64,000 nt of DNA from NCBI RefSeq assembly GCF_041321155.1, contig NZ_JBGGWB010000001.1:1550001-1614000 (forward strand), given 5' to 3'. Below, in pieces: positions 54,113 to 64,000 of the stretch. Under the pieces are notes generated by a model. That model was not told the DNA's origin, ran no database searches, and worked only from the letters and a program-made list of their open reading frames with translations. Made by a program: the position numbers and the translations under genes. The DNA is from Sphingomonas sp. IW22 (GTDB taxonomy: Bacteria > Pseudomonadota > Alphaproteobacteria > Sphingomonadales > Sphingomonadaceae). How positions within the stretch are numbered: position 1 is the first letter of the stretch; every line of letters starts with the position of its first letter.

Positions 54113-56980
54113 ATGCGCCACTATAAAGTGGGTTTGCTGATCGGCACCATGTTGGCGGCGGTTCCGGCATTTGCGCAGGACGTGACAACACCCGGCGCAG
54201 GGCAAGCGCCCGCGACGCCGCAAGATCCATCACCAATCGCCGCGCAGGTAGGACCGGACAATGTCCCGGCCGAGGACATCGTCGTTACCGGCATCCGCAA
54301 CAGCTTGGCCAACTCGGCCCGCGTGAAGCGCGAGGCACAGCAGATCGTCGACAGCATCTCCGCCGAGGATGTCGGCAAGTTCCCTGACGCCAACATCTCG
54401 GAATCGCTTCAGCGTATCACCGGCGTTGCCATCGACCGCTCGGGTGGCGAGGGACAGTTCATCACCGTGCGTGGACTTGGTCCCGAATTCAACTCGGTGC
54501 TGGTCAACGGCCGGATCATGGCCACTGACAATCCCGGTCGTGAATTCTCCTTCGACGTGCTGTCGTCGAACATGATCCAGCGCACGGACGTGTTCAAATC
54601 CAGCGTGCCCGAGTTGCAGGAAGGCGGTATCGGCGCGACCGTCAACATCATCACCGCCCGGCCGCTGGACCAGCGCGAGGGATTCCACTTCTCCGGCTCC
54701 GTCGGCGGCATCTACGACACGATGCGCCAAAAGGTCGGGCCGGACGCCTCCGCCGTCGTGTCCTGGACCAATACCGACAAGACGTTCGGCGCGGTGCTTT
54801 CCGGCTCTTACACCAAACGCATGAATCAGGCCGATCAGATCGCGATCGACGGATGGATCAACGGCAGGCCGGACATCATTTCCATGATCGATGGCCAGCC
54901 GACACTGATAACGGGATCCGACCCGCGATATCCGGTGGAGGGCAACGTCAACGTGCCCCAAAGCCTTTATTATCAACGCGTGGAAGAAGAGCGGGAGCGG
55001 ATCAACGTCGCAGGATCGGTTCAATTCCGGCCCACCGATAATCTCGAAATCACTGTCGACGGCATCTATTCGAAGTTCGACGTGTCAGGCGTGGTCCGCA
55101 GAATGGATAATTTCCTGGCGGCGCCCTATTACGAGCCGACGTTCAATTCGAACGGTACTGTGACCAGCATGGGCATGATCGGCGCCGATTTTATCGGGCA
55201 ATACCCACAGTTTCTTGAGGAAAATCGTGACCGGCTGACCAATAACGGCCTGAACGCAAAGATCGATCACGTCTATAACCGGACGAACCGACAGTCCGAC
55301 AGCTATCAGATCGGTGGAAACATCAAGTGGAACCCGACCGAGGATGTCGAACTCCGGTTCGACGCTTCGATGACAGGTGCCAACCGGGCGTCGCCGAACC
55401 AATATCTCGTCATCGGCGCGCTGTTGCCGTACAGCTATCAGTTCGACGTGGACGGGGGGCAGGGATTGCCGACCGTGTCGTTCGACAACGCCATCATCAA
55501 CGATCCTGACCGGATGCGGCTGCACTACATGGCTGTCGATCGGAACACTTCCCGCGACCGGGGCTCGGAATTTCACTTCGACACCAAATATGATGTTCAG
55601 GATTCGATCCTGAAATCGGTGTTGATCGGTGGATCCTATACCGAACGGCGCAAGATCAATCGGTCGTTCAACAACAGCGATACGAATTGCACTTATTGCG
55701 GCTATCAGGTGCCGATCGCCGACGGTCTGTTGCAGGAATATGCATGGGGCGATCTGCTTGGCACGGGGAACGCGATACCTCCGACGCTGTTCGAATTCGA
55801 TGCCGACGCAATGATCGCCTATCTCAACGATCCGGCGACCCTGGCAATTCCGTCCAACGGTCGCACGCCGGAAGAACAAGCCGCGTTCGCCCAGCAGTTG
55901 CTTGCCTTGCCTGGTGGGCCGTTTGGCGTTCGCGAACAGCTTCGCGGGACGGTCAATGTCCAGGAAAAGCTTACCGCAGGCTATATCGCGATGCAGTTTG
56001 CGGGACCGAACTGGTCGGGCAATTTCGGCGTTCGCGTCATTCAGACGGACGTGATTTCGTCAGGCTTCGACACGCCCGTCACCAGCATCAACAACACGCC
56101 CGGTGACGATACGCTGCAATATACCTATGGTCCGGCAACGGCCATTTCGGTGCGGAACAGCTATATCAACGCGCTGCCGTCGGCGAACCTCAAGTTCAAT
56201 GTCACCGACAATTTCATCGCGCGTGCCGCCTTTTCACAGACGGTGACCAGGCCGACGCTGACCGATCTGGGCGTCAACAATGACTATGGCGGGCGTATTT
56301 CGGTACCGCTGTCCTCGGGCGGCAATCCCAACCTTCTGCCATTCCGATCGACCAATTACGATCTATCGGCCGAATGGTATCTGTCGTCGGTCAGCTATCT
56401 GAGCATCGGCGGCTTCTACAAGGACCTGAGCAACTTCCTCGAGCTACAGACGCTGCCGGTCGTGCGCTTCGGACGCACGTTCCAGGACACGCGCACGCGC
56501 AATGGGCAGACAGGCTATATCCGCGGGATCGAGGTCGGCGGGCAATATGCGTTCGACTGGCTGCCGGGCTTTGCATCCGGCTTTGGCGTCGCAGGCAACT
56601 ATACCTATGTCGACAGCAAGGTTGAGCGCGACCAGACACTGGCTGATTACGATTGCGGCTATAATGGCCTGTCGCCGCATTCCGCCAATGGCAGCGTCTT
56701 TTACGAAAAGTTCGGGATTTCGGCGCGCGCGTCGTACAATTGGCGTTCCGACTATCTGCGGTCCTGCCGATCAAGCCAGGGACGTCCGCGCAACCGCACT
56801 GCCTATGGCCAACTCGACTTCAGCCTCGGTTACGACCTTACCAACAATTTCCAGATATATGTACAGGGCGTAAACGTGACCAATCAAAAGGTGGATGAGT
56901 GGTCGGCGATCGAAGAACGCTACCTGCTGCTTGAGGAAACAGGCGCTCGCTACAACTTCGGCGTTCGCGTCAAGTTTTAA
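54113..56980 (+). CDS. TonB-dependent receptor (carbohydrate-type)
   Basis: 955 residues with a signal peptide (about 1-22, ending AFAQ). The TonB box is EDIVVTGIR (about 54-62). The plug domain (about 65-200) contains VDSISAEDVGKFPDANISES, here shortened to SAEDVGKFPDANI, and GEGQFITVRGLG. The barrel ends in YNFGVRVKF with a terminal Phe. Together with the LacI regulator, transporter and sugar enzymes nearby, it should import a glycoside or oligosaccharide across the outer membrane using TonB energy. Ribosome site GGGAGGA. A hairpin follows. The ligand cannot be read from sequence. Confidence 0.92.
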   Translation: MRHYKVGLLIGTMLAAVPAFAQDVTTPGAGQAPATPQDPSPIAAQVGPDNVPAEDIVVTGIRNSLANSARVKREAQQIVDSISAEDVGKFPDANISESLQRITGVAIDRSGGEGQFITVRGLGPEFNSVLVNGRIMATDNPGREFSFDVLSSNMIQRTDVFKSSVPELQEGGIGATVNIITARPLDQREGFHFSGSVGGIYDTMRQKVGPDASAVVSWTNTDKTFGAVLSGSYTKRMNQADQIAIDGWINGRPDIISMIDGQPTLITGSDPRYPVEGNVNVPQSLYYQRVEEERERINVAGSVQFRPTDNLEITVDGIYSKFDVSGVVRRMDNFLAAPYYEPTFNSNGTVTSMGMIGADFIGQYPQFLEENRDRLTNNGLNAKIDHVYNRTNRQSDSYQIGGNIKWNPTEDVELRFDASMTGANRASPNQYLVIGALLPYSYQFDVDGGQGLPTVSFDNAIINDPDRMRLHYMAVDRNTSRDRGSEFHFDTKYDVQDSILKSVLIGGSYTERRKINRSFNNSDTNCTYCGYQVPIADGLLQEYAWGDLLGTGNAIPPTLFEFDADAMIAYLNDPATLAIPSNGRTPEEQAAFAQQLLALPGGPFGVREQLRGTVNVQEKLTAGYIAMQFAGPNWSGNFGVRVIQTDVISSGFDTPVTSINNTPGDDTLQYTYGPATAISVRNSYINALPSANLKFNVTDNFIARAAFSQTVTRPTLTDLGVNNDYGGRISVPLSSGGNPNLLPFRSTNYDLSAEWYLSSVSYLSIGGFYKDLSNFLELQTLPVVRFGRTFQDTRTRNGQTGYIRGIEVGGQYAFDWLPGFASGFGVAGNYTYVDSKVERDQTLADYDCGYNGLSPHSANGSVFYEKFGISARASYNWRSDYLRSCRSSQGRPRNRTAYGQLDFSLGYDLTNNFQIYVQGVNVTNQKVDEWSAIEERYLLLEETGARYNFGVRVKF

Positions 56981-56988
56981 GGTGCACT

Positions 56989-57023
56989 GGCGTTTGCGTA
57001 GACCAGATGTTTACGCAAACGCC
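56989..57023 (+). terminator. Stem-loop after the TonB receptor gene
   Basis: Perfect 12-base arms (56989-57000 and 57012-57023) close an 11-base loop, starting nine bases after the stop. No T-run follows. Confidence 0.6.
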
Positions 57024-57111
57024 TGCGTTCCTCGAACACAGGTCGGCTGCACAGGAATCCCGGGATCATGTTGTCCGGCGTGCTGATATTCCTGCAATTC
57101 CCTTCCCGCTT

Positions 57112-58149
57112 TTATCGTAACAGGAGGTCGCGTCGGGAGCCGGTGTCGTTCCCCTCGACGGGCGCGGTGCTGCTCCGGACGATCAGTTCGTGGCGCAGCA
57201 TCACCTGTTCCACCGGTTCGGGCTCGCCACGCAGGATGCCCACCAGCAATTCGACCGCGCGGCGCCCGATCAGCCCCTTTGGCTGAGCCACCGTTGTCAG
57301 AGCGGGCTGAAAAAATGGTGCGAGCGGCAGGTCGTCGAACCCCACCACCGACACATGATCGGGGCAAGACAACCCCGCGCGGCTGATCGCACTAATCGCG
57401 CCCATCGCCATCTCGTCGCTGAAACAGAAAATCGCCGTCACGTCGCGCGCCAGCAATTCGCATGTCGAATCGAACGCCGATGCGGCCGAGTAATCCGCCA
57501 CACGCACATGCAGGTCGGACGACAGGTCATGACGCGCCGCCGCCAGCCGCGCGCCAGCCAGGCGATCGCGACTGATCGGGCTGATGGCCGGACCGGTGAT
57601 CACGCCGATCCGCCGGTGGCCCAGCGCGATCAGATATTCGATCGCGTCCCCGCTGGCGGCGGCATTGTCGATATGCACGCTCGGCACCCCCAGGTCGGGG
57701 CTGTATTCGCAACCGTTAACGACGGGGGCCGACGCGCCCAGCCGCCCCAGCAGCGGCTTCAGGCTGGCGGGCAACCGGTGGCCCAGGAAGATCAGCCCGT
57801 CCACCTCACGGCGGGAAAGCATTTCGGCATATTGGTCCTCGACATCGGGATCGTGTCGCGTGTCGCCCAGCACCACGGCATAGCCGGCGTCGCGCGCAGC
57901 CTCTTCAGCGCCGCGAATGACGCTGGCGAAAAAGGGATTCGAAATGTCGGGCACGGTCAGCAGGATCTTGGCCGCACGCAGCGTCCTGAGACTGCGCGCC
58001 GCGACGTTGGGTGAATATCCCAGCGCCTGAACGACTTCGAGCACGCGGCGGCGCGTTTCGGCCGCCACCCGCTCAGGCTGGCTCAACACGCGTGAGACCG
58101 TGGCGGTTGACACACCGGCAACCTCGGCGACCTGGATGATCGTGGTCAT
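57112..58149 (-). CDS. LacI family transcriptional regulator
   Basis: 345 residues. N-terminal helix-turn-helix: TTIIQVAEVAGVSTATVSRVLS (shortened here to VAEVAGVSTATVSRVL), with the hinge RVLEVVQALGYSPN. The periplasmic-binding-like core follows (about 60-330): ISNPFFASVIRGAEEAA, VDGLIFLGHRLP, HRRIGVITGP and VVGFDDLPLAPFFQP. It should bind a sugar and release the operator. It is divergent from the MFS gene; a TGTAA-N4-TTACA site lies in the 127-base gap. Convergent with the TonB receptor gene. Confidence 0.93.
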   Translation of the reverse strand: MTTIIQVAEVAGVSTATVSRVLSQPERVAAETRRRVLEVVQALGYSPNVAARSLRTLRAAKILLTVPDISNPFFASVIRGAEEAARDAGYAVVLGDTRHDPDVEDQYAEMLSRREVDGLIFLGHRLPASLKPLLGRLGASAPVVNGCEYSPDLGVPSVHIDNAAASGDAIEYLIALGHRRIGVITGPAISPISRDRLAGARLAAARHDLSSDLHVRVADYSAASAFDSTCELLARDVTAIFCFSDEMAMGAISAISRAGLSCPDHVSVVGFDDLPLAPFFQPALTTVAQPKGLIGRRAVELLVGILRGEPEPVEQVMLRHELIVRSSTAPVEGNDTGSRRDLLLR

Positions 58150-58194
58150 CCTGCCTTCATGTCGCTTGTGGCAGAAGGTGTCGACCGGTTTCGA

Positions 58195-58208
58195 TGTAAT
58201 CCTTTACA
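58195..58208. promoter_or_regulatory. LacI-type operator
   Basis: TGTAATCCTTTACA is an inverted repeat (TGTAA-N4-TTACA) like known LacI/PurR-class operators, which usually have a central CG. It lies 46 bases from the LacI start and overlaps the -35 hexamer of the divergent operon promoter. Confidence 0.6.
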
Positions 58209-58231
58209 TACGCTTTTGCGCTGCATAGGCT
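58203..58231 (+). promoter_or_regulatory. Candidate promoter of the sugar operon
   Basis: TTTACA (58203-58208) and TAGGCT (58226-58231) are spaced by 17 bases, 45 bases upstream of the MFS start codon. The -35 is the right half of the LacI-type palindrome, so repression by the regulator is plausible. Confidence 0.45.
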
Positions 58232-58276
58232 GACCATTGAAGAGCAGGGAAACTGCGTTCGGGGAGGACAAGGCGC

Positions 58277-59524
58277 ATGGTCGCTGCTGAAGGGGTGCCG
58301 CATTCGACGCGCCCAGTACCGGGAATGCTGACGGGGCGCCTCAGTGCCCTCATGTTCATGCAGTTTTTTGTCTGGGGTGCATGGAATGTCACCCTTGGGC
58401 TGGTCATGCAGACCGTTGGCATCGGCAACCTGATCGCCAACGCCTTTTCGGTGGGGCCGATCGCCTCAATCGCCGGATCATTCCTGCTCGGCATGGCGGC
58501 CGCGCGCTATCTCAGCCCCAAGATGCTGATGGTGATCCTGCACCTGGTCGGCGGCGTCATCCTGTTCGTGCTGCCGAGTTTGGTAACGCCGGAAAATGGC
58601 GACAGCTTTGTCTGGCTGCTGCTGGGCTATATGATCCTTTACATGCCGACCGTCGGGCTGGCGAACACCATTGCGCTGAAAAGCTTTGGCGAGCGGGTGG
58701 ACCGTTTCCCCTTTGTGCGCGCATTCGGTACGCTGGGCTGGATCGCGGCCGGGCTGATCATCGGCTGGGCGGGCCTGTCCGCCAGCCCACAGATCTTCAC
58801 CATCGCGGCGGTCGTATCGGTGGCGCTGGGCCTTTACAGCTTCACGCTGCCCAATGTTGAGCCGGATGCTCCGCGCGACGAAAGCATTGTCCGTCAGGTG
58901 CTGTGTGTCGAGGCGTTCGGCCTGATGAAGCAGCGCTCGTTCCTGATCTTCATCACCTGCGCTACGCTGATCTCGATCCCGCTGGCGATGTATTATGCCT
59001 ATGCGTCCCCCTATGTCGGCACGGCGGGGATTTCGAATGTCGGCGGCACGCTGGCCATCGGCCAGATGTCGGAACTGGCCTTCATGTTCTCGATGCCGTG
59101 GCTGTACCGCCGGTTCGGGGTGAAGCCGTTGCTGCTGGTGGGCATGGCCGCGTGGGCGGTTCGCTATGCATTGTTCGCGATTGGCGATGGCGGCGATTCG
59201 CTGTGGGCGATCTATCTGGGCGTGGCGCTGCACGGGGTCTGCTACGACTTCTTCTTCGTGGCCGGCGCGATCTATACCGGCACCATCGCCTCGCCCAAGG
59301 GTGTCAATGCACAGGCGCAAGGGATGCTGACGCTGTTTACCTATGGCGTGGGCATGCTGCTCGGCTCGCAGATCGGCGGGTTCCTGTACGCACAGCTGCC
59401 TGCCGACCCGACCATAGCCGACTGGCAGCAAATGTGGTGGTACCCCGCGATCGCCGCGGCTTTGATCGCCATCCTGTTCCAGTTGAGCTTCCGCGACGAC
59501 AGCAAGAAGGAGGTGCGGCCGTGA
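58277..59524 (+). CDS. MFS transporter, nucleoside:H+ symporter (NupG/XapB) family
   Basis: 415 residues, 12 predicted membrane segments. Blocks typical of the NupG-like family are LSALMFMQFFVWGAWNVTLG, KSFGERVDRFPFVRAFGTLGWI (here the core RFPFVRAFGTLGW) and YDFFFVAGAIYTG. In sphingomonads and Bacteroidetes such proteins sit in sugar loci and may carry sugars or glycosides rather than nucleosides. It starts the operon with SD GAGGACAAGG. The stop overlaps the next gene's GTG start by four bases. Confidence 0.88.
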   Translation: MVAAEGVPHSTRPVPGMLTGRLSALMFMQFFVWGAWNVTLGLVMQTVGIGNLIANAFSVGPIASIAGSFLLGMAAARYLSPKMLMVILHLVGGVILFVLPSLVTPENGDSFVWLLLGYMILYMPTVGLANTIALKSFGERVDRFPFVRAFGTLGWIAAGLIIGWAGLSASPQIFTIAAVVSVALGLYSFTLPNVEPDAPRDESIVRQVLCVEAFGLMKQRSFLIFITCATLISIPLAMYYAYASPYVGTAGISNVGGTLAIGQMSELAFMFSMPWLYRRFGVKPLLLVGMAAWAVRYALFAIGDGGDSLWAIYLGVALHGVCYDFFFVAGAIYTGTIASPKGVNAQAQGMLTLFTYGVGMLLGSQIGGFLYAQLPADPTIADWQQMWWYPAIAAALIAILFQLSFRDDSKKEVRP

Positions 59525-60594
59525 CCGCGATGAAGGGACCAGCCATTTTCCTGGCGCAGTTCATGGGCGATACCGCGCCGTTCGACACGCTGGACCACAT
59601 GGCCGAATGGGCAGCTGGTCTGGGCTATGTCGGTGTTCAGATTCCGTGCGACCCGCGCCTGATCGACGTAAAGCTGGCGGCGGAGAGCAAGACCTATTGC
59701 GACGACCTTCGCGGGCGTCTGGCGCAATTCGGTATCGAACCGACCGAATTGTCGACCCACCTTCAGGGGCAGCTGGTTGCCGTCCACCCCGCCTATGACA
59801 CGCTGTTCGACGGTTTCGCCCCCGCCGAAGTCCATGGCAAACCGGCTGAGCGGCAGGCATGGGCCGTCGAGCAGGTAAAGCTTGCCGCGCGCGCCAGTGC
59901 AAATCTGGGGCTGAACGCACATGCGACCTTCTCAGGCGCGCTGGCATGGCCCTATGTCTATCCGTGGCCCCAACGCCCGGCGGGGTTGGTTGAAGAGGCC
60001 TTTGCCGAACTGGCGCGGCGCTGGACGCCGATCCTCGACACGTTCGAGGATGCGGGTGTCGATTGCGCGTTCGAGATTCATCCCGGTGAGGATCTGCACG
60101 ACGGCGCGACCTGGGAACGCTTTCTGGCTGCGGTCGACAATCACCCGCGCGCGCGCATCCTGTTCGACCCTTCGCATTTCGTGCTGCAACAGCTCGATTA
60201 TCTCGACTTCATCGATCGCTATCACAACCGGATTTCGTGCTTCCACGTCAAGGATGCCGAATTCAATCCGAACGGCCGGACCGGCGTTTACGGCGGTTAT
60301 GAACGCTGGACCGACCGGGCCGGGCGTTTTCGCTCAACCGGTGACGGACATGTCGATTTTGGCGCCATTTTCAGTAAGATGGCACAATATGGCTATGGCG
60401 GATGGGCAGTTATCGAATGGGAATGCGCATTGAAGCGGGCGGAGGACGGCGCGCGTGAGGGCGCACCCTTCATTCGCGATCACATGATTCGCGTGACCGA
60501 ACGCGCCTTTGACGACTTTGCCGCAAGCGGGGTCGACCGGGCGGCGATCCGCGCATTGATGGGTCTGTCGCGCGACGGGGAGGATCGGGCATGA
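59521..60594 (+). CDS. Sugar phosphate isomerase/epimerase-like TIM-barrel protein
   Basis: 357 residues from GTG 59521 (GTGA overlap with the MFS gene). Xylose-isomerase-like AP endonuclease 2 fold. Metal-ligand Glu and Asp/His positions are visible: [30 protein letters not shown] and VIEWECAL. No signal peptide, so it is cytoplasmic. Partners include a Gfo/Idh dehydrogenase directly downstream (ATGA overlap). In C- or O-glycoside 3-keto pathways this type of protein acts as a 3-keto-sugar eliminase or isomerase; that role is inferred. Confidence 0.85.
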
Positions 60595-61730
60595 GCCGGC
60601 AACCCCTTCGGCTGGGCATGGTCGGCGGCGGTGAGGGTGCCTTTATCGGCGCGATTCACCGCATGGCCGCCGCGCTGGACGGTGATTGGCGGCTCGTCGC
60701 GGGCGCGTTCAGCACCGATACGGGGCGCAACGAGCGGACCGGGGCGCAACTGGCGCTCGATCCCGCTCGCGTCTATCCCACGATAGACGCGATGCTGGCG
60801 GGCGAACAGGCACTCCCAGCCGACGAACGGATCGACGCCGTGGCGATCGTCACCCCCAACCACCTGCACGCGCCGATGGCGATCGCCGCGCTGGACGCGG
60901 GCTTTCATGTCTTTTGCGAAAAGCCGATGGCGATGAACGTGGCGGAGGCAGAGGCCATTGCCCGTTCGGCCAGCGCCAGCGGGCGGCATTTCGGCCTCGC
61001 CTTCACCTATAGCGGCTATCCGCTGGTCGAAGAGGCGCGCGCACGGATCGCGCGCGGCGACCTGGGCGACATTCGGCTGGTGCAGGTCGAATATCTGCAG
61101 GGCTGGCTGAGCCAACCGATCGACAATGACGGGAACAAGCAGGCCGAATGGCGCACCGATCCCGCACGCGCCGGGCTCGGCGGGTGTCTTGGCGATATCG
61201 GCACCCATGCCTTTCATCTGGCCGAACATGTCTCGGGCCTGCGCGTGGCGTCGGTGTCGGCGGATCTGTCGATCCATGTCCCCGGCCGGCGGCTGGATGA
61301 CGATGTCAACGCGCTGCTGCGGTTCGACGGCGAGGCGCGCGGCACGCTGAAGGCCAGTCAGGTGGCAGCGGGTGAGGAAAACGGCCTGAAGCTGCGCATC
61401 TACGGCTCGCTGGGCGGGCTGGAATGGGCACAGATGGAGCCGAACACGCTGACGCTGCGTTGGCTGGACCGTCCGGCAGAGGTCGTGCGCGCGGGCGGCC
61501 CCGGTCTTCAGGACGGCACTACGCGCCTGTTGCGGACGCCATCGGGCCACCCTGAAGGCTATGTCGAGGCCTTCGGCAATCTCTACCGTGCCTTTGCCGC
61601 CGCCATCCGGGGCGAGGACGGCCGCCGCTTTCCCGGGGTCGACGACGGATTGCGCACCATGCGCTTTGTCGAGTCGGTCGTCGCGAACGCGGCCTCGGAT
61701 CAAAAATGGACACCCATCAATCGGGGATAG
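60591..61730 (+). CDS. Gfo/Idh/MocA family sugar dehydrogenase
   Basis: 379 residues. The Rossmann N-domain starts [19 protein letters not shown]. The catalytic EKP motif is FCEKPMAMN (about 108-116), followed by [16 protein letters not shown] (active-site Asp/His). The C-domain is an open beta sheet. Family enzymes oxidise or reduce sugar hydroxyls with NAD(P), often at C3 of glycosides, or act on inositols. It is placed between a TIM-barrel enzyme and a cytochrome c gene in the LacI-controlled operon, supporting a role in sugar oxidation or re-reduction of a 3-keto product. Confidence 0.92.
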
Positions 61731-61735
61731 ACTGA

Positions 61736-62116
61736 ATGACTTGCTTTACTCGTTGGGCAGGGGCGGCAATCGCCGCCACCGCATTTGTTACCATCACCAC
61801 GCCCGCCATGGGCCAGACTGCCGCCCCGCCCGCCTTTGCCGCGTGCAAGGCGTGCCACACCGTTGAAAAGGGTGCGCGCAGTGGCATCGGCCCCAACCTG
61901 CACGGCGTGGCGGGTCGGGACGCGGCATCGGTGCCGGGCTTCCGATATTCGACCGCGCTCAAGAACTCGAAGCTGACCTGGGACGATGCCTCGCTCGATG
62001 CGTTCATCGCTGCGCCGACCAAGAAGGTGCCGGGCACCCGCATGCCGATCGGCATGGCCGACCCCAAGAAGCGCGCCGCGATCATCGCCTATCTGAAAAA
62101 GGCGGGCGCGCAATGA
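61736..62116 (+). CDS. Exported class I cytochrome c
   Basis: 126 residues. Signal peptide to about residue 26 (ITTPAMG). Haem motif CKACH (Cys37, Cys40, His41) and axial Met in GTRMPIGM (about 99-106), with the classic GIGPNLHGVAGR and IAYLKK helices. It is a soluble mono-haem electron carrier in the periplasm. Within a sugar operon it is a likely electron acceptor for a periplasmic FAD sugar dehydrogenase. Five bases separate it from the upstream dehydrogenase gene. Confidence 0.92.
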   Translation: MTCFTRWAGAAIAATAFVTITTPAMGQTAAPPAFAACKACHTVEKGARSGIGPNLHGVAGRDAASVPGFRYSTALKNSKLTWDDASLDAFIAAPTKKVPGTRMPIGMADPKKRAAIIAYLKKAGAQ

Positions 62117-62129
62117 GCCCGGTGCGGCC

Positions 62130-63041
62130 ATGACGCTATCGCGCCGCACGCTGCTGGCTGCGGGGGCGGCATCCCCCGTCGCGATGGGGATCGCCGCAGC
62201 CCAGTCGCCAAAGTCGAATGCGGCGCGATTTTCGCTCGGATACGCTCCGCATGAGGGCAGCTTTGCAAGCCGGGGAGGCCTGATCGAACAGATCGCCTTC
62301 GCCGCCGATCAGGGCTTTACCGCGTGGGAGGATAACGAGGCACGCAACCGCCCCGTGGCCGAACAGACGCGCATGGCCAAGGCGCTGGCCGATCGCGGCA
62401 TGACGATGGGCGTTTTCGTCGCCAGCATGCCCAAATGGGCCGAATCGCGCCCCCGGCTGGGCGCCAATGACGGTGCGGAGCGAGAAGCGTTTCTGGCCGA
62501 TGTGCGAAGCGCGATCGACGTCGCCAAGCGGCTGAACGCGCGGCACATGACCGTGGTGACCGGCTTCATGGACCCCAGGGTGCCGGTCGAAATCCAGACC
62601 GGGCGCGTGATCGACGTAATGCGCCGCGCGGGAGACATCGTCGCTCCGCATGGGCTGGTGCTGGTGATGGAACCGCTCAACACCCGCACTGATCACCCCG
62701 GCGTCTACATGCAGGGCATCGCCCAGGGCTATGCCGTTGCACGCGGCGTGAACGGACCAGGGGTCAAGATATTGGCCGACCTGTATCATGAGCAGATCCA
62801 GTCCGGGAACCTGATCCCGACGCTGGATGCATGCTGGGACGAGGTCGGCTACATCCAGTTCGGCGACAATCCCGGTCGTAACGAACCGGGCAGCGGCGAA
62901 ATCAATTATGCCAATGTCGTCAAATGGTTGCGCTCTCGCCGCTATTCGGGCGTGATTGGCATGGAACATGGCAATTCGGCCAAGGATCGCGCGGGGGAAG
63001 AGCGGCTGATTGCCGCCTATCGCGCGATCGACAAGGCCTGA
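62130..63041 (+). CDS. Tat-exported TIM-barrel protein, hydroxypyruvate isomerase-like
   Basis: 303 residues. The twin-arginine signal SRRTLLAAGAAS precedes a hydrophobic stretch ending near AAAQS, so export in folded form is expected. The mature domain is a xylose isomerase-like TIM barrel: VMEPLNTRTDHPGVYM (Glu), LADLYHEQIQ (Asp/His), IQFGDNPGRNEPGSGEINY and GMEHGNS. This resembles hydroxypyruvate isomerase but is exported, so a role on periplasmic (3-keto) sugars is more likely than hydroxypyruvate. Metal-dependent. Confidence 0.85.
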   Translation: MTLSRRTLLAAGAASPVAMGIAAAQSPKSNAARFSLGYAPHEGSFASRGGLIEQIAFAADQGFTAWEDNEARNRPVAEQTRMAKALADRGMTMGVFVASMPKWAESRPRLGANDGAEREAFLADVRSAIDVAKRLNARHMTVVTGFMDPRVPVEIQTGRVIDVMRRAGDIVAPHGLVLVMEPLNTRTDHPGVYMQGIAQGYAVARGVNGPGVKILADLYHEQIQSGNLIPTLDACWDEVGYIQFGDNPGRNEPGSGEINYANVVKWLRSRRYSGVIGMEHGNSAKDRAGEERLIAAYRAIDKA

Positions 63042-63055
63042 GGAGAGGAAACAGG

Positions 63056-63874
63056 ATGCTCATCCGAACAGCGGCATGTCTGATGGTCGGCCTGGCCACG
63101 GTCGCTACGGCGCAGGAAAAGCCCGGCTTTACCGACACACCCGTGCTGCCCGACGGCAAATGGCGTGTGCATGACGCCGAACGCCCCGCACCTTCCGTCG
63201 TGACCCCGGCGGCAAATCCCGGCGGCGCGCCGTCGGACGCGGTGGTGCTGTTCGACGGCATCTCGCTCGACGCCTGGCGTGCGGAACGGACACCATGGAC
63301 CGTCGAAAACGGCGCGATGACCGTCCCGTCCCGCGCCCGCAGCGGCGGCGAGAACAATCTGATTTCCAAGCAGAGTTTTGGCGATGTCCAACTGCATCTG
63401 GAATTCCGGTCGCCGACGCCGCCGACCAAGAGCTCCCAGGATCGCGGGAACAGCGGCATCTGGTTCATGCAGCGCTACGAACTGCAAATCCTCGATGGCT
63501 ATCAGAACCCGACCTATGCCGACGGCACGGTCGGTGCCGTCTATGCCTGGAAACCGCCCTTGGCCAATGCATCGCGCCGCCCGGGCGAGTGGCAAAGCTA
63601 TGACGTGATTTTCGAACGCCCCCGCTTCGCCGCTGACGGATCGCTGGTCCGCCCGGCATATGTCACCGCCTTCCTGAACGGCGTGCTGGTCCAGAATCAT
63701 CAGGCGATGCTGGGCACCACGGTCTGGCGTCAGGTCGCGAAATATCAGGCTCATCCCGACGCGGCGCCGATCCAGCTTCAGGACCATGATTCGCCGGTGT
63801 CGTTCCGCAACATCTGGGTCCGTCCGCTGCCCGAAGCTGCCATTGGACAGGATCTGCCGGGAGAACGTAAATGA
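63056..63874 (+). CDS. Exported DUF1080 (3-keto-disaccharide hydrolase) protein
   Basis: 272 residues from ATG 63056 with an AGGAGAGGAA ribosome site. Signal peptide about 1-20 (LMVGLATVATAQ). The DUF1080 jelly-roll domain shows VVLFDGISLDAWRAE, WTVENGAMTV, ISKQSFGDVQLHLEFR, RGNSGIWFMQRYELQILD and SFRNIWVRPL. Members hydrolyse 3-keto-glycosides or bind glycans; annotation in databases as a 3-keto-disaccharide hydrolase stems from family studies. It fits downstream of a C3-oxidising system. The stop overlaps the next gene (ATGA). Confidence 0.88.
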   Translation: MLIRTAACLMVGLATVATAQEKPGFTDTPVLPDGKWRVHDAERPAPSVVTPAANPGGAPSDAVVLFDGISLDAWRAERTPWTVENGAMTVPSRARSGGENNLISKQSFGDVQLHLEFRSPTPPTKSSQDRGNSGIWFMQRYELQILDGYQNPTYADGTVGAVYAWKPPLANASRRPGEWQSYDVIFERPRFAADGSLVRPAYVTAFLNGVLVQNHQAMLGTTVWRQVAKYQAHPDAAPIQLQDHDSPVSFRNIWVRPLPEAAIGQDLPGERK

Positions 63875-64000
63875 TTGATCGCAGAACCGCGCTTGCCGGC
63901 GTCGTCGCCATGTTCGGCGCGGGCGTTTTCGCCCCCATCGCACGTGCCGCAGGGCAGGCACAGGCAACACGCATGCCGGTGATCAGCGACGGCCCGCCCA
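63871..64000 (+). CDS. Tat-signal protein, start only (possible gluconate 2-dehydrogenase subunit 3-like)
   Basis: 43 residues are visible. The twin-arginine motif DRRTALAG and hydrophobic GVVAMFGAGVFAPIARA give a Tat signal. In sugar loci of this type, the gene at this position is often the small hitchhiker subunit of an FAD (GMC) sugar 3-dehydrogenase, which needs Tat export with the catalytic subunit. Only the signal region is in the window, so the identity is a guess from context. ATGA overlap with the DUF1080 gene. Confidence 0.5.
   Translation, partial: MIDRRTALAGVVAMFGAGVFAPIARAAGQAQATRMPVISDGPP

Follow-up and report, generated by a model that had tools for sequence, protein, structure and literature searches.

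We report the analysis of a gene cluster of Sphingomonas sp. IW22 that begins near the end of a window of 64,000 nucleotides (C1:1550001-1614000 of a 4.0 Mb genome) and continues past the end of this window, for which reason the reading was extended beyond it (L005, L006). Nine genes on the same strand, from a NupG-type MFS permease to a GMC oxidoreductase (window-equivalent 58277-66979), follow one another in the order permease, hydratase-type barrel, Gfo/Idh/MocA oxidoreductase, cytochrome c, a further TIM barrel here called TIM2, DUF1080 protein, Gluconate_2-dh3 small subunit, eliminase-type barrel and GMC oxidoreductase. The successive intergenic gaps are 5, -4, 5, 13, 14, -4, -4 and 23 bp, and a divergent gene for a LacI-family regulator stands at the front (Table 1). 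The conserved unit runs from LacI and the permease through to the GMC gene and so extends beyond the window. On the basis of its homologies we consider it probable that this is a LacI-controlled operon for the non-hydrolytic breakdown of glycosides, by oxidation followed by elimination.

The original prediction, made from the letters of the window, had described a locus for the C3 oxidation and cleavage of a glycoside, with the oxidation taking place outside the inner membrane. Gene content and homology support this description. The genes that it listed (TonB receptor, LacI regulator, NupG-type permease, two barrels, Gfo/Idh/MocA, cytochrome c and DUF1080 proteins, and a protein with a twin-arginine (Tat) signal at the window edge) are all present; the edge protein is a Gluconate_2-dh3 subunit, and the GMC oxidoreductase that was expected within a few kb of position 64000 does indeed lie there.

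Table 1. Features of the operon and its front flank. Positions are those of the window or, past its end, window-equivalent.
Feature	Position	Strand	Remarks
TonB receptor	54113-56980	+	
LacI-family regulator	57112-58149	-	Pfam LacI and Peripla_BP_3; divergent from the operon
Operator ATGTAATCCTTTACAT	58194-58209		Between the LacI and MFS genes
NupG-type MFS permease	58277-59524	+	PF03825, 282 bits; first operon gene
AP_endonuc_2 barrel without signal	59530-60594	+	PDB 8ro4, 608 bits; predicted AtHYD-type hydratase
Gfo/Idh/MocA oxidoreductase	60591-61730	+	Pfam; predicted 3-keto-sugar reductase
Cytochrome c with CKACH	61736-62116	+	PF00034; predicted periplasmic electron acceptor
TIM2, AP_endonuc_2 barrel with Tat signal	62130-63041	+	Isomerase/epimerase-like
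DUF1080 (3keto-disac_hyd) protein	63056-63874	+	PF06439, 142 bits; 4qhz, 195 bits; predicted exported
Gluconate_2-dh3 small subunit with Tat signal	63871-64440	+	PF13618, 115 bits; crosses the window edge at 64000
Third AP_endonuc_2 barrel, with Tat signal	64437-65279	+	Past the window end; predicted AtOGE-type eliminase
GMC oxidoreductase	65303-66979 (C1:1615303-1616976)	+	Past the window end

Conservation of the operon

Related operons were collected by a contig scan with the hydratase as query, from which the best 80 of 581 confirmed loci were taken, and the 38 of these 80 that hold a GMC oxidoreductase of more than 70% identity form the set used throughout this work. The other 42 loci yielded no GMC protein above this threshold and were left out; a distant eliminase-like match is present in 13 of them. 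Since the 38 operons are the best hydratase matches and come mostly from Sphingomonas, the conservation counts are not independent events, and the hydratase, at 74-90% identity, is present in 38/38 by choice of the set. The eliminase, the small subunit and the cytochrome c are likewise present in all 38 operons, in every one of which the end of the eliminase gene lies no more than 120 bp from the GMC gene. At an identity of at least 55% the Gfo protein is found in 36 operons, the permease in 35, TIM2 in 34 and the DUF1080 protein in 28, and a LacI match of at least 65% identity accompanies 30 of the 38.

A second sample, drawn without regard to the hydratase, came from 199 genomes of the family, among them the present one. 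Of these, 32 have a GMC match at E <= 1e-150, and the 12 that, apart from the present genome, have a GMC protein at least 74% identical are referred to below as the drawn genomes. The eliminase adjoins the GMC gene in all 12, and the hydratase lies within 7 kb in 11 of them. On a plasmid of Sphingomonas parapaucimobilis genes of these kinds occur in a different order.

Predicted enzymes of cleavage

The third barrel finds its best PDB match in 8bvk (86 bits, E 3e-23, residues 36-259), which PMC10628242 identifies as AtOGE, an O-glycoside beta-eliminase from Agrobacterium tumefaciens. Along the alignment H161 of the third barrel corresponds to H134 of AtOGE, the catalytic base, and H218 to the metal residue H189, and the residues H161, E164, D192, H218 and E256 are invariant across 39 sequences. 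By these similarities the third barrel is most likely an AtOGE-type 3-keto-O-glycoside beta-eliminase. The cytoplasmic barrel matches the 2-hydroxy-3-keto-glucal hydratase 8ro4 over residues 1-345 of the 353 given and is predicted to be a hydratase of the AtHYD type. The two xylose-isomerase-like barrels of the original prediction are therefore present, the cytoplasmic one reading as a hydratase of the elimination product, and a third lies past the window edge.

Cleavage had been assigned to the DUF1080 protein, whose gene is present and which passes the PF06439 model (141.7 bits; gathering score 26.8), but this protein is probably not the cleaving enzyme, or not the only one: the eliminase is the constant one, missing from 0/38 operons as against 10/38 for the DUF1080 orthologue. 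Four of the ten (L014, L041, L044 and L045) were scored as lacking the orthologue despite a 44-50% identical copy elsewhere in the locus. Because of this difference we place the eliminase at the core of cleavage and regard the DUF1080 protein as an added or alternative enzyme, most likely a second, accessory enzyme for the cleavage of 3-keto-glycosides.

Other DUF1080 genes were met in the course of this analysis. A different type borders the operon in 5 of 39 loci (one member scanned, the others assigned by clustering). Within this genome, a protein with two DUF1080 stretches stands near three Gfo/Idh/MocA genes, ApbE and a TonB-type receptor (L008, G000:C1:898000-916000), possibly a separate C3-oxidation set. 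At L007:6434-10727 a DUF1080 gene directly adjoins a further GMC-type gene, at 35% identity, and a sequence with weak similarity to Gluconate_2-dh3 (29%), with an SBF-like transporter beside them.

Predicted enzymes of oxidation and reduction

A sequence search places the GMC oxidoreductase closest to subunits of fructose and glucose dehydrogenases, which partner with a small subunit and a cytochrome. GMC enzymes are typified by C-terminal His and Asn motifs, and the motifs HE[MT]GGxRMG and NPSxT occur in all 38 operons, as does the C-x-x-C-H of the cytochrome; the parts of a LacABC/FDH-type complex, namely the GMC large subunit, the Tat small subunit and the cytochrome c, are found together in 38/38. 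The position of oxidation, C3, is deduced from the partner enzymes. A second GMC oxidoreductase of this genome (G000:C3:213491-215152; L093:9492-11153) is 72-73% identical, with a Gluconate_2-dh3 subunit at 67%, and this pair adjoins a DUF2254 gene and a dienelactone hydrolase-like gene.

The Gfo protein reaches 35 bits on the NCBIfam model NF058561 (BT_2158 glycoside 3-dehydrogenase), for which the cut-off is 750, and its gene adjoins the hydratase gene also in the Rhizobium locus L091 and the Caulobacter locus L065. By analogy with the reductase role that is proposed for A. tumefaciens in PMC10628242, it most likely acts as the final reductase.

Export signals and compartments

Twin-arginine N-termini are carried by the eliminase in 38/38 operons, by the small subunit in 37/38 and by TIM2 in 34/34 (matches of at least 55% identity); the one small subunit missed, in L016, has an N-terminus that is not Tat-like in frame, and a looser motif search counted 38. 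The same looser search gave 0/38 for the GMC protein, 0/38 for the hydratase, 1/36 for the Gfo protein, 2/38 for the cytochrome, 4/28 for the DUF1080 protein and 4/35 for the permease. In hitch-hiker export through the Tat system a partner is carried out on the signal of one protein, and because the GMC protein has no signal and the small subunit has a Tat signal, this pair is likely to be exported on a single one. A Tat-signal partner protein from Rhizobium sp. GIN611 was used in the expression of the A. tumefaciens dehydrogenase GlycDH, as PMC10628242 describes.

Eliminase-like barrels with twin-arginine starts (judged by eye) occur also in Caulobacter (L065), other Caulobacterales (L048 and L052), Phenylobacterium (L060), L046 and L087, and four Pseudoxanthomonas loci have Sec-like starts by the same judgement. 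Three rhizobial loci (L080, L088 and L091, the last from Rhizobium ruizarguesonis) have a barrel of this kind without a signal, which in R. ruizarguesonis sits with an ABC importer, a hydratase and a Gfo protein. The twin-arginine and Sec-like starts make it most likely that cleavage is periplasmic, here by beta-elimination, and that the cleaved product is imported, both in the present operon and in those lineages.

The TIM2 barrel

By sequence TIM2 is nearest to 3ngf, 1k77 and YcjR (6wn6); it falls in a hydroxypyruvate isomerase-like group, with weaker ties to YcjR and the D-tagatose 3-epimerases. It is a relative and not a member of the hydroxypyruvate isomerase equivalog TIGR03234 (129 bits; cut-off 353), and in its match to YcjR (43 bits) one His of the YcjR metal site is replaced by Gln. 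A structural model of modest quality (predicted local distance difference test score, pLDDT, 65) gives 3ngf, 1k77, a tagatose epimerase and YcjR as its first matches; in a second structure aligner the scores of xylose isomerases and of the C-glycoside eliminase 7exz come next, lower by no more than about 2 Z units (20.7 to 18.8), so the fold by itself is not decisive. Residues E181, D217, Q243 and E279, which we take to be the metal site, are invariant in 35 sequences, and proteins of this type are named hydroxypyruvate isomerase, xylose isomerase or TIM barrel protein among the 120 matches listed.

Our guess from these relationships is that TIM2 is an exported 3-keto-glycoside epimerase, and a second eliminase or an isomerase is possible instead; its role is the least certain step of the scheme set out below. 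The narrower proposal of a periplasmic C2 or C4 epimerase that converts 3-keto-mannosides or 3-keto-galactosides to 3-keto-glucosides is speculative, and we would put the chances well against it.

Operator and neighbourhood

The original prediction had a LacI regulator with an operator, and this operator proves to be real: a whole-genome pattern search finds no perfect ATGTAANNNNTTACAT other than ATGTAATCCTTTACAT, and TGTAAN4TTACA is present in all 29 related operons that have the divergent LacI-MFS gap, 26 of them with an identical core as the first match. Allowing up to two mismatches gives 12 operator-like sites, whereas the reversed control pattern gives 15, and the weaker sites are thus indistinguishable from chance. 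The four loci L034 and L037-L039 have no LacI match and no operator, and carry tryptophan-halogenase-like genes upstream of the permease (one scanned, the others by clustering); in L022, L026 and L028 the LacI match ends 38 bp from a glyoxalase-type gene, assigned by a scan in L028 and by clustering in the other two.

The TonB receptor had been counted as part of the locus, but its membership of the unit is not shown: there is no operator in the roughly 210 bases upstream of it, the whole-genome search found no perfect copy ahead of it or in the mannan locus, and TonB-type matches, all of them distant (27-42% identity), occur in the flanks of only 6 of the 38 related operons. On its other side the operon is bordered by an alpha-mannan type locus (L006:106-14930) with three GH92 genes, GH125, GH43, a TonB receptor, a GtaA_6_Hairpin (glutaminase A-like) protein and two ROK proteins, and the fourth GH92 gene of the genome (L005:14107-16461) comes directly after the operon.

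Proposed pathway and alternative explanations

From the gene set and its order, the operator, the signal-like N-termini, the homologies and the active-site residues, all of which are observed, we infer every reaction, location and transported species of the following scheme, and its substrate. A periplasmic GMC flavoprotein, exported through Tat by the signal of its small subunit, would oxidise C3 of a glycosyl residue and pass the electrons to the cytochrome c of the operon. The Tat-exported, metal-dependent AtOGE-type barrel would then beta-eliminate the aglycone or the next sugar to leave a 2-hydroxy-3-keto-glycal, with the exported DUF1080 protein cleaving further 3-keto-glycosides and TIM2 perhaps epimerising 3-keto-glycosides ahead of cleavage. 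The cleavage product would be imported across the inner membrane by the NupG-type permease, hydrated to a 3-keto sugar by the cytoplasmic AtHYD-type barrel and reduced to the plain sugar by the Gfo/Idh/MocA enzyme.

An alternative is that the DUF1080 protein is the main cleaving enzyme, by periplasmic hydrolysis as proposed for lactose use in Caulobacter, and that the role of the Tat barrels is limited to isomerising the 3-keto sugars so released. A PF06439 member does lie within the operon, and nine of the ten genomes without the operon DUF1080 gene have one elsewhere (genome completeness was not given); however, the orthologue is found in 28 operons and the eliminase in all 38, and a hydratase of the elimination product, which occurs in the 38 by choice of the set but also in 12/12 drawn genomes, would be superfluous to a purely hydrolytic route, so we consider this explanation unlikely. 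Much less likely still is C3 oxidation by the Gfo protein in the cytoplasm, with the GMC system as a separate respiratory sugar dehydrogenase. The relatives of the Gfo protein include enzymes named as 3-dehydrogenases (DgpA, glucuronide 3-dehydrogenase and the BT_2158 model), but its score on that model is far below the cut-off, the eliminase and DUF1080 proteins bear export signals and their 3-keto substrate should therefore be outside, and the eliminase gene keeps its place beside the GMC gene in both the 38 operons and the 12 drawn genomes.

The operon might also serve the neighbouring alpha-mannan type locus, with its GH92, GH125, GH43 and TonB genes, a link that we hold to be somewhat less improbable than hydrolysis by DUF1080 and still doubtful. 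All four GH92 genes of the genome are contained in the stretch of about 17 kb that follows the GMC gene downstream. L010, L025, L030 and L031 each have a GH92 gene of more than 70% identity as immediate neighbour, and 3 of 12 genomes selected without regard to GH92 have a GH92 gene within 15 kb of the GMC gene (0.13 expected, P 0.0003), although two of these three cases are from one genus and the test was devised after the neighbours had been seen. The other nine genomes have no GH92 gene within 15 kb, four of them none at all, a control with GH3 points in the same direction (2 genomes, 0.56 expected, P 0.11), and no perfect operator exists elsewhere in the genome. The nearness to GH92 mannosidases is only suggestive as a clue to the substrate, and by analogy a broad substrate use as in Caulobacter is as likely.

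Several observations weigh against the scheme of oxidation and elimination itself. The eliminase is only distantly related to AtOGE and its barrel family includes isomerases; the small subunit has no meaningful sequence match in the PDB; and the Gfo protein could oxidise instead. In one of the drawn genomes (G113) some 54 kb separate the hydratase from the eliminase. Around the second GMC/small-subunit pair of the IW22 genome, a reading of 18 kb showed neither an eliminase nor a hydratase. The DUF1080 protein, moreover, is not shown to be dispensable, because of the PF06439 proteins elsewhere in nine of the ten genomes.

Relation to known systems

The pathway of Bacteroides thetaiotaomicron BT2156-2160 is said to proceed by C3 oxidation and elimination/hydration with a Gfo enzyme as first oxidant, unlike the Gfo protein of this operon, which misses the BT_2158 model. 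BT2157 is a DUF1080 member, as given in PMC9007349. E. coli YcjR, a 3-keto-D-glucoside 4-epimerase, is a relative of TIM2 in sequence and fold, but TIM2 differs from it in having a Tat signal and in sitting in a GMC operon.

The closest parallel in chemistry is the GlycDH/AtOGE/AtHYD/Gfo operon of A. tumefaciens (PMC10628242), which has the same types of flavin adenine dinucleotide (FAD) dehydrogenase, eliminase, hydratase and Gfo reductase and, like the route predicted here, would proceed through oxidation, elimination, hydration and reduction. The eliminase here bears a Tat signal, which the rhizobial homologues of L080, L088 and L091 lack (for AtOGE the comparison is with the PDB entry 8bvk, which aligns from its residue 11), and the cytochrome c, DUF1080 and TIM2 genes are in the same operon; the NupG-type permease stands in place of the ABC importer of the Rhizobium locus.

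The Caulobacter vibrioides cluster L065 likewise brings together a GMC oxidoreductase, cytochrome c, small subunit, transporter, eliminase-like and hydratase-like barrels, Gfo, LacI and DUF1080 proteins, and its eliminase-like barrel also has a twin-arginine N-terminus; its gene order suggests that it is the counterpart of the Caulobacter lacABC lactose cluster. It differs in the identity of its GMC (47%) and eliminase (31%) proteins and in its gene order, with DUF1080 ahead of LacI, and no match to TIM2 was found in it. Caulobacter is described as using lactose, salicin and raffinose, a broad range, in PMC9007349. A literature search, in which subscription journals were largely not covered, gave no Sphingomonas operon of such a kind among the matches listed.

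By analogy, then, the chemistry would be that of the Agrobacterium operon, and the redox front end and the clustering those of Caulobacter lacABC; what appears new, judged from the genes, is a Tat-signal eliminase constant over 38 operons, together with cytochrome, DUF1080 and TIM2 in one operon, and TIM2 itself. TIM2 is a common exported protein and, were it an epimerase, it would let a single glucose-type line of eliminase, hydratase and reductase use sugars of other configuration, and beside alpha-mannan loci would convert mannosides to glucose without phosphorylated intermediates. If the proposed pathway is correct, the sphingomonads would gain a sugar-cleaving route that bypasses the ordinary glycosidases and in which the bond is broken in the periplasm.

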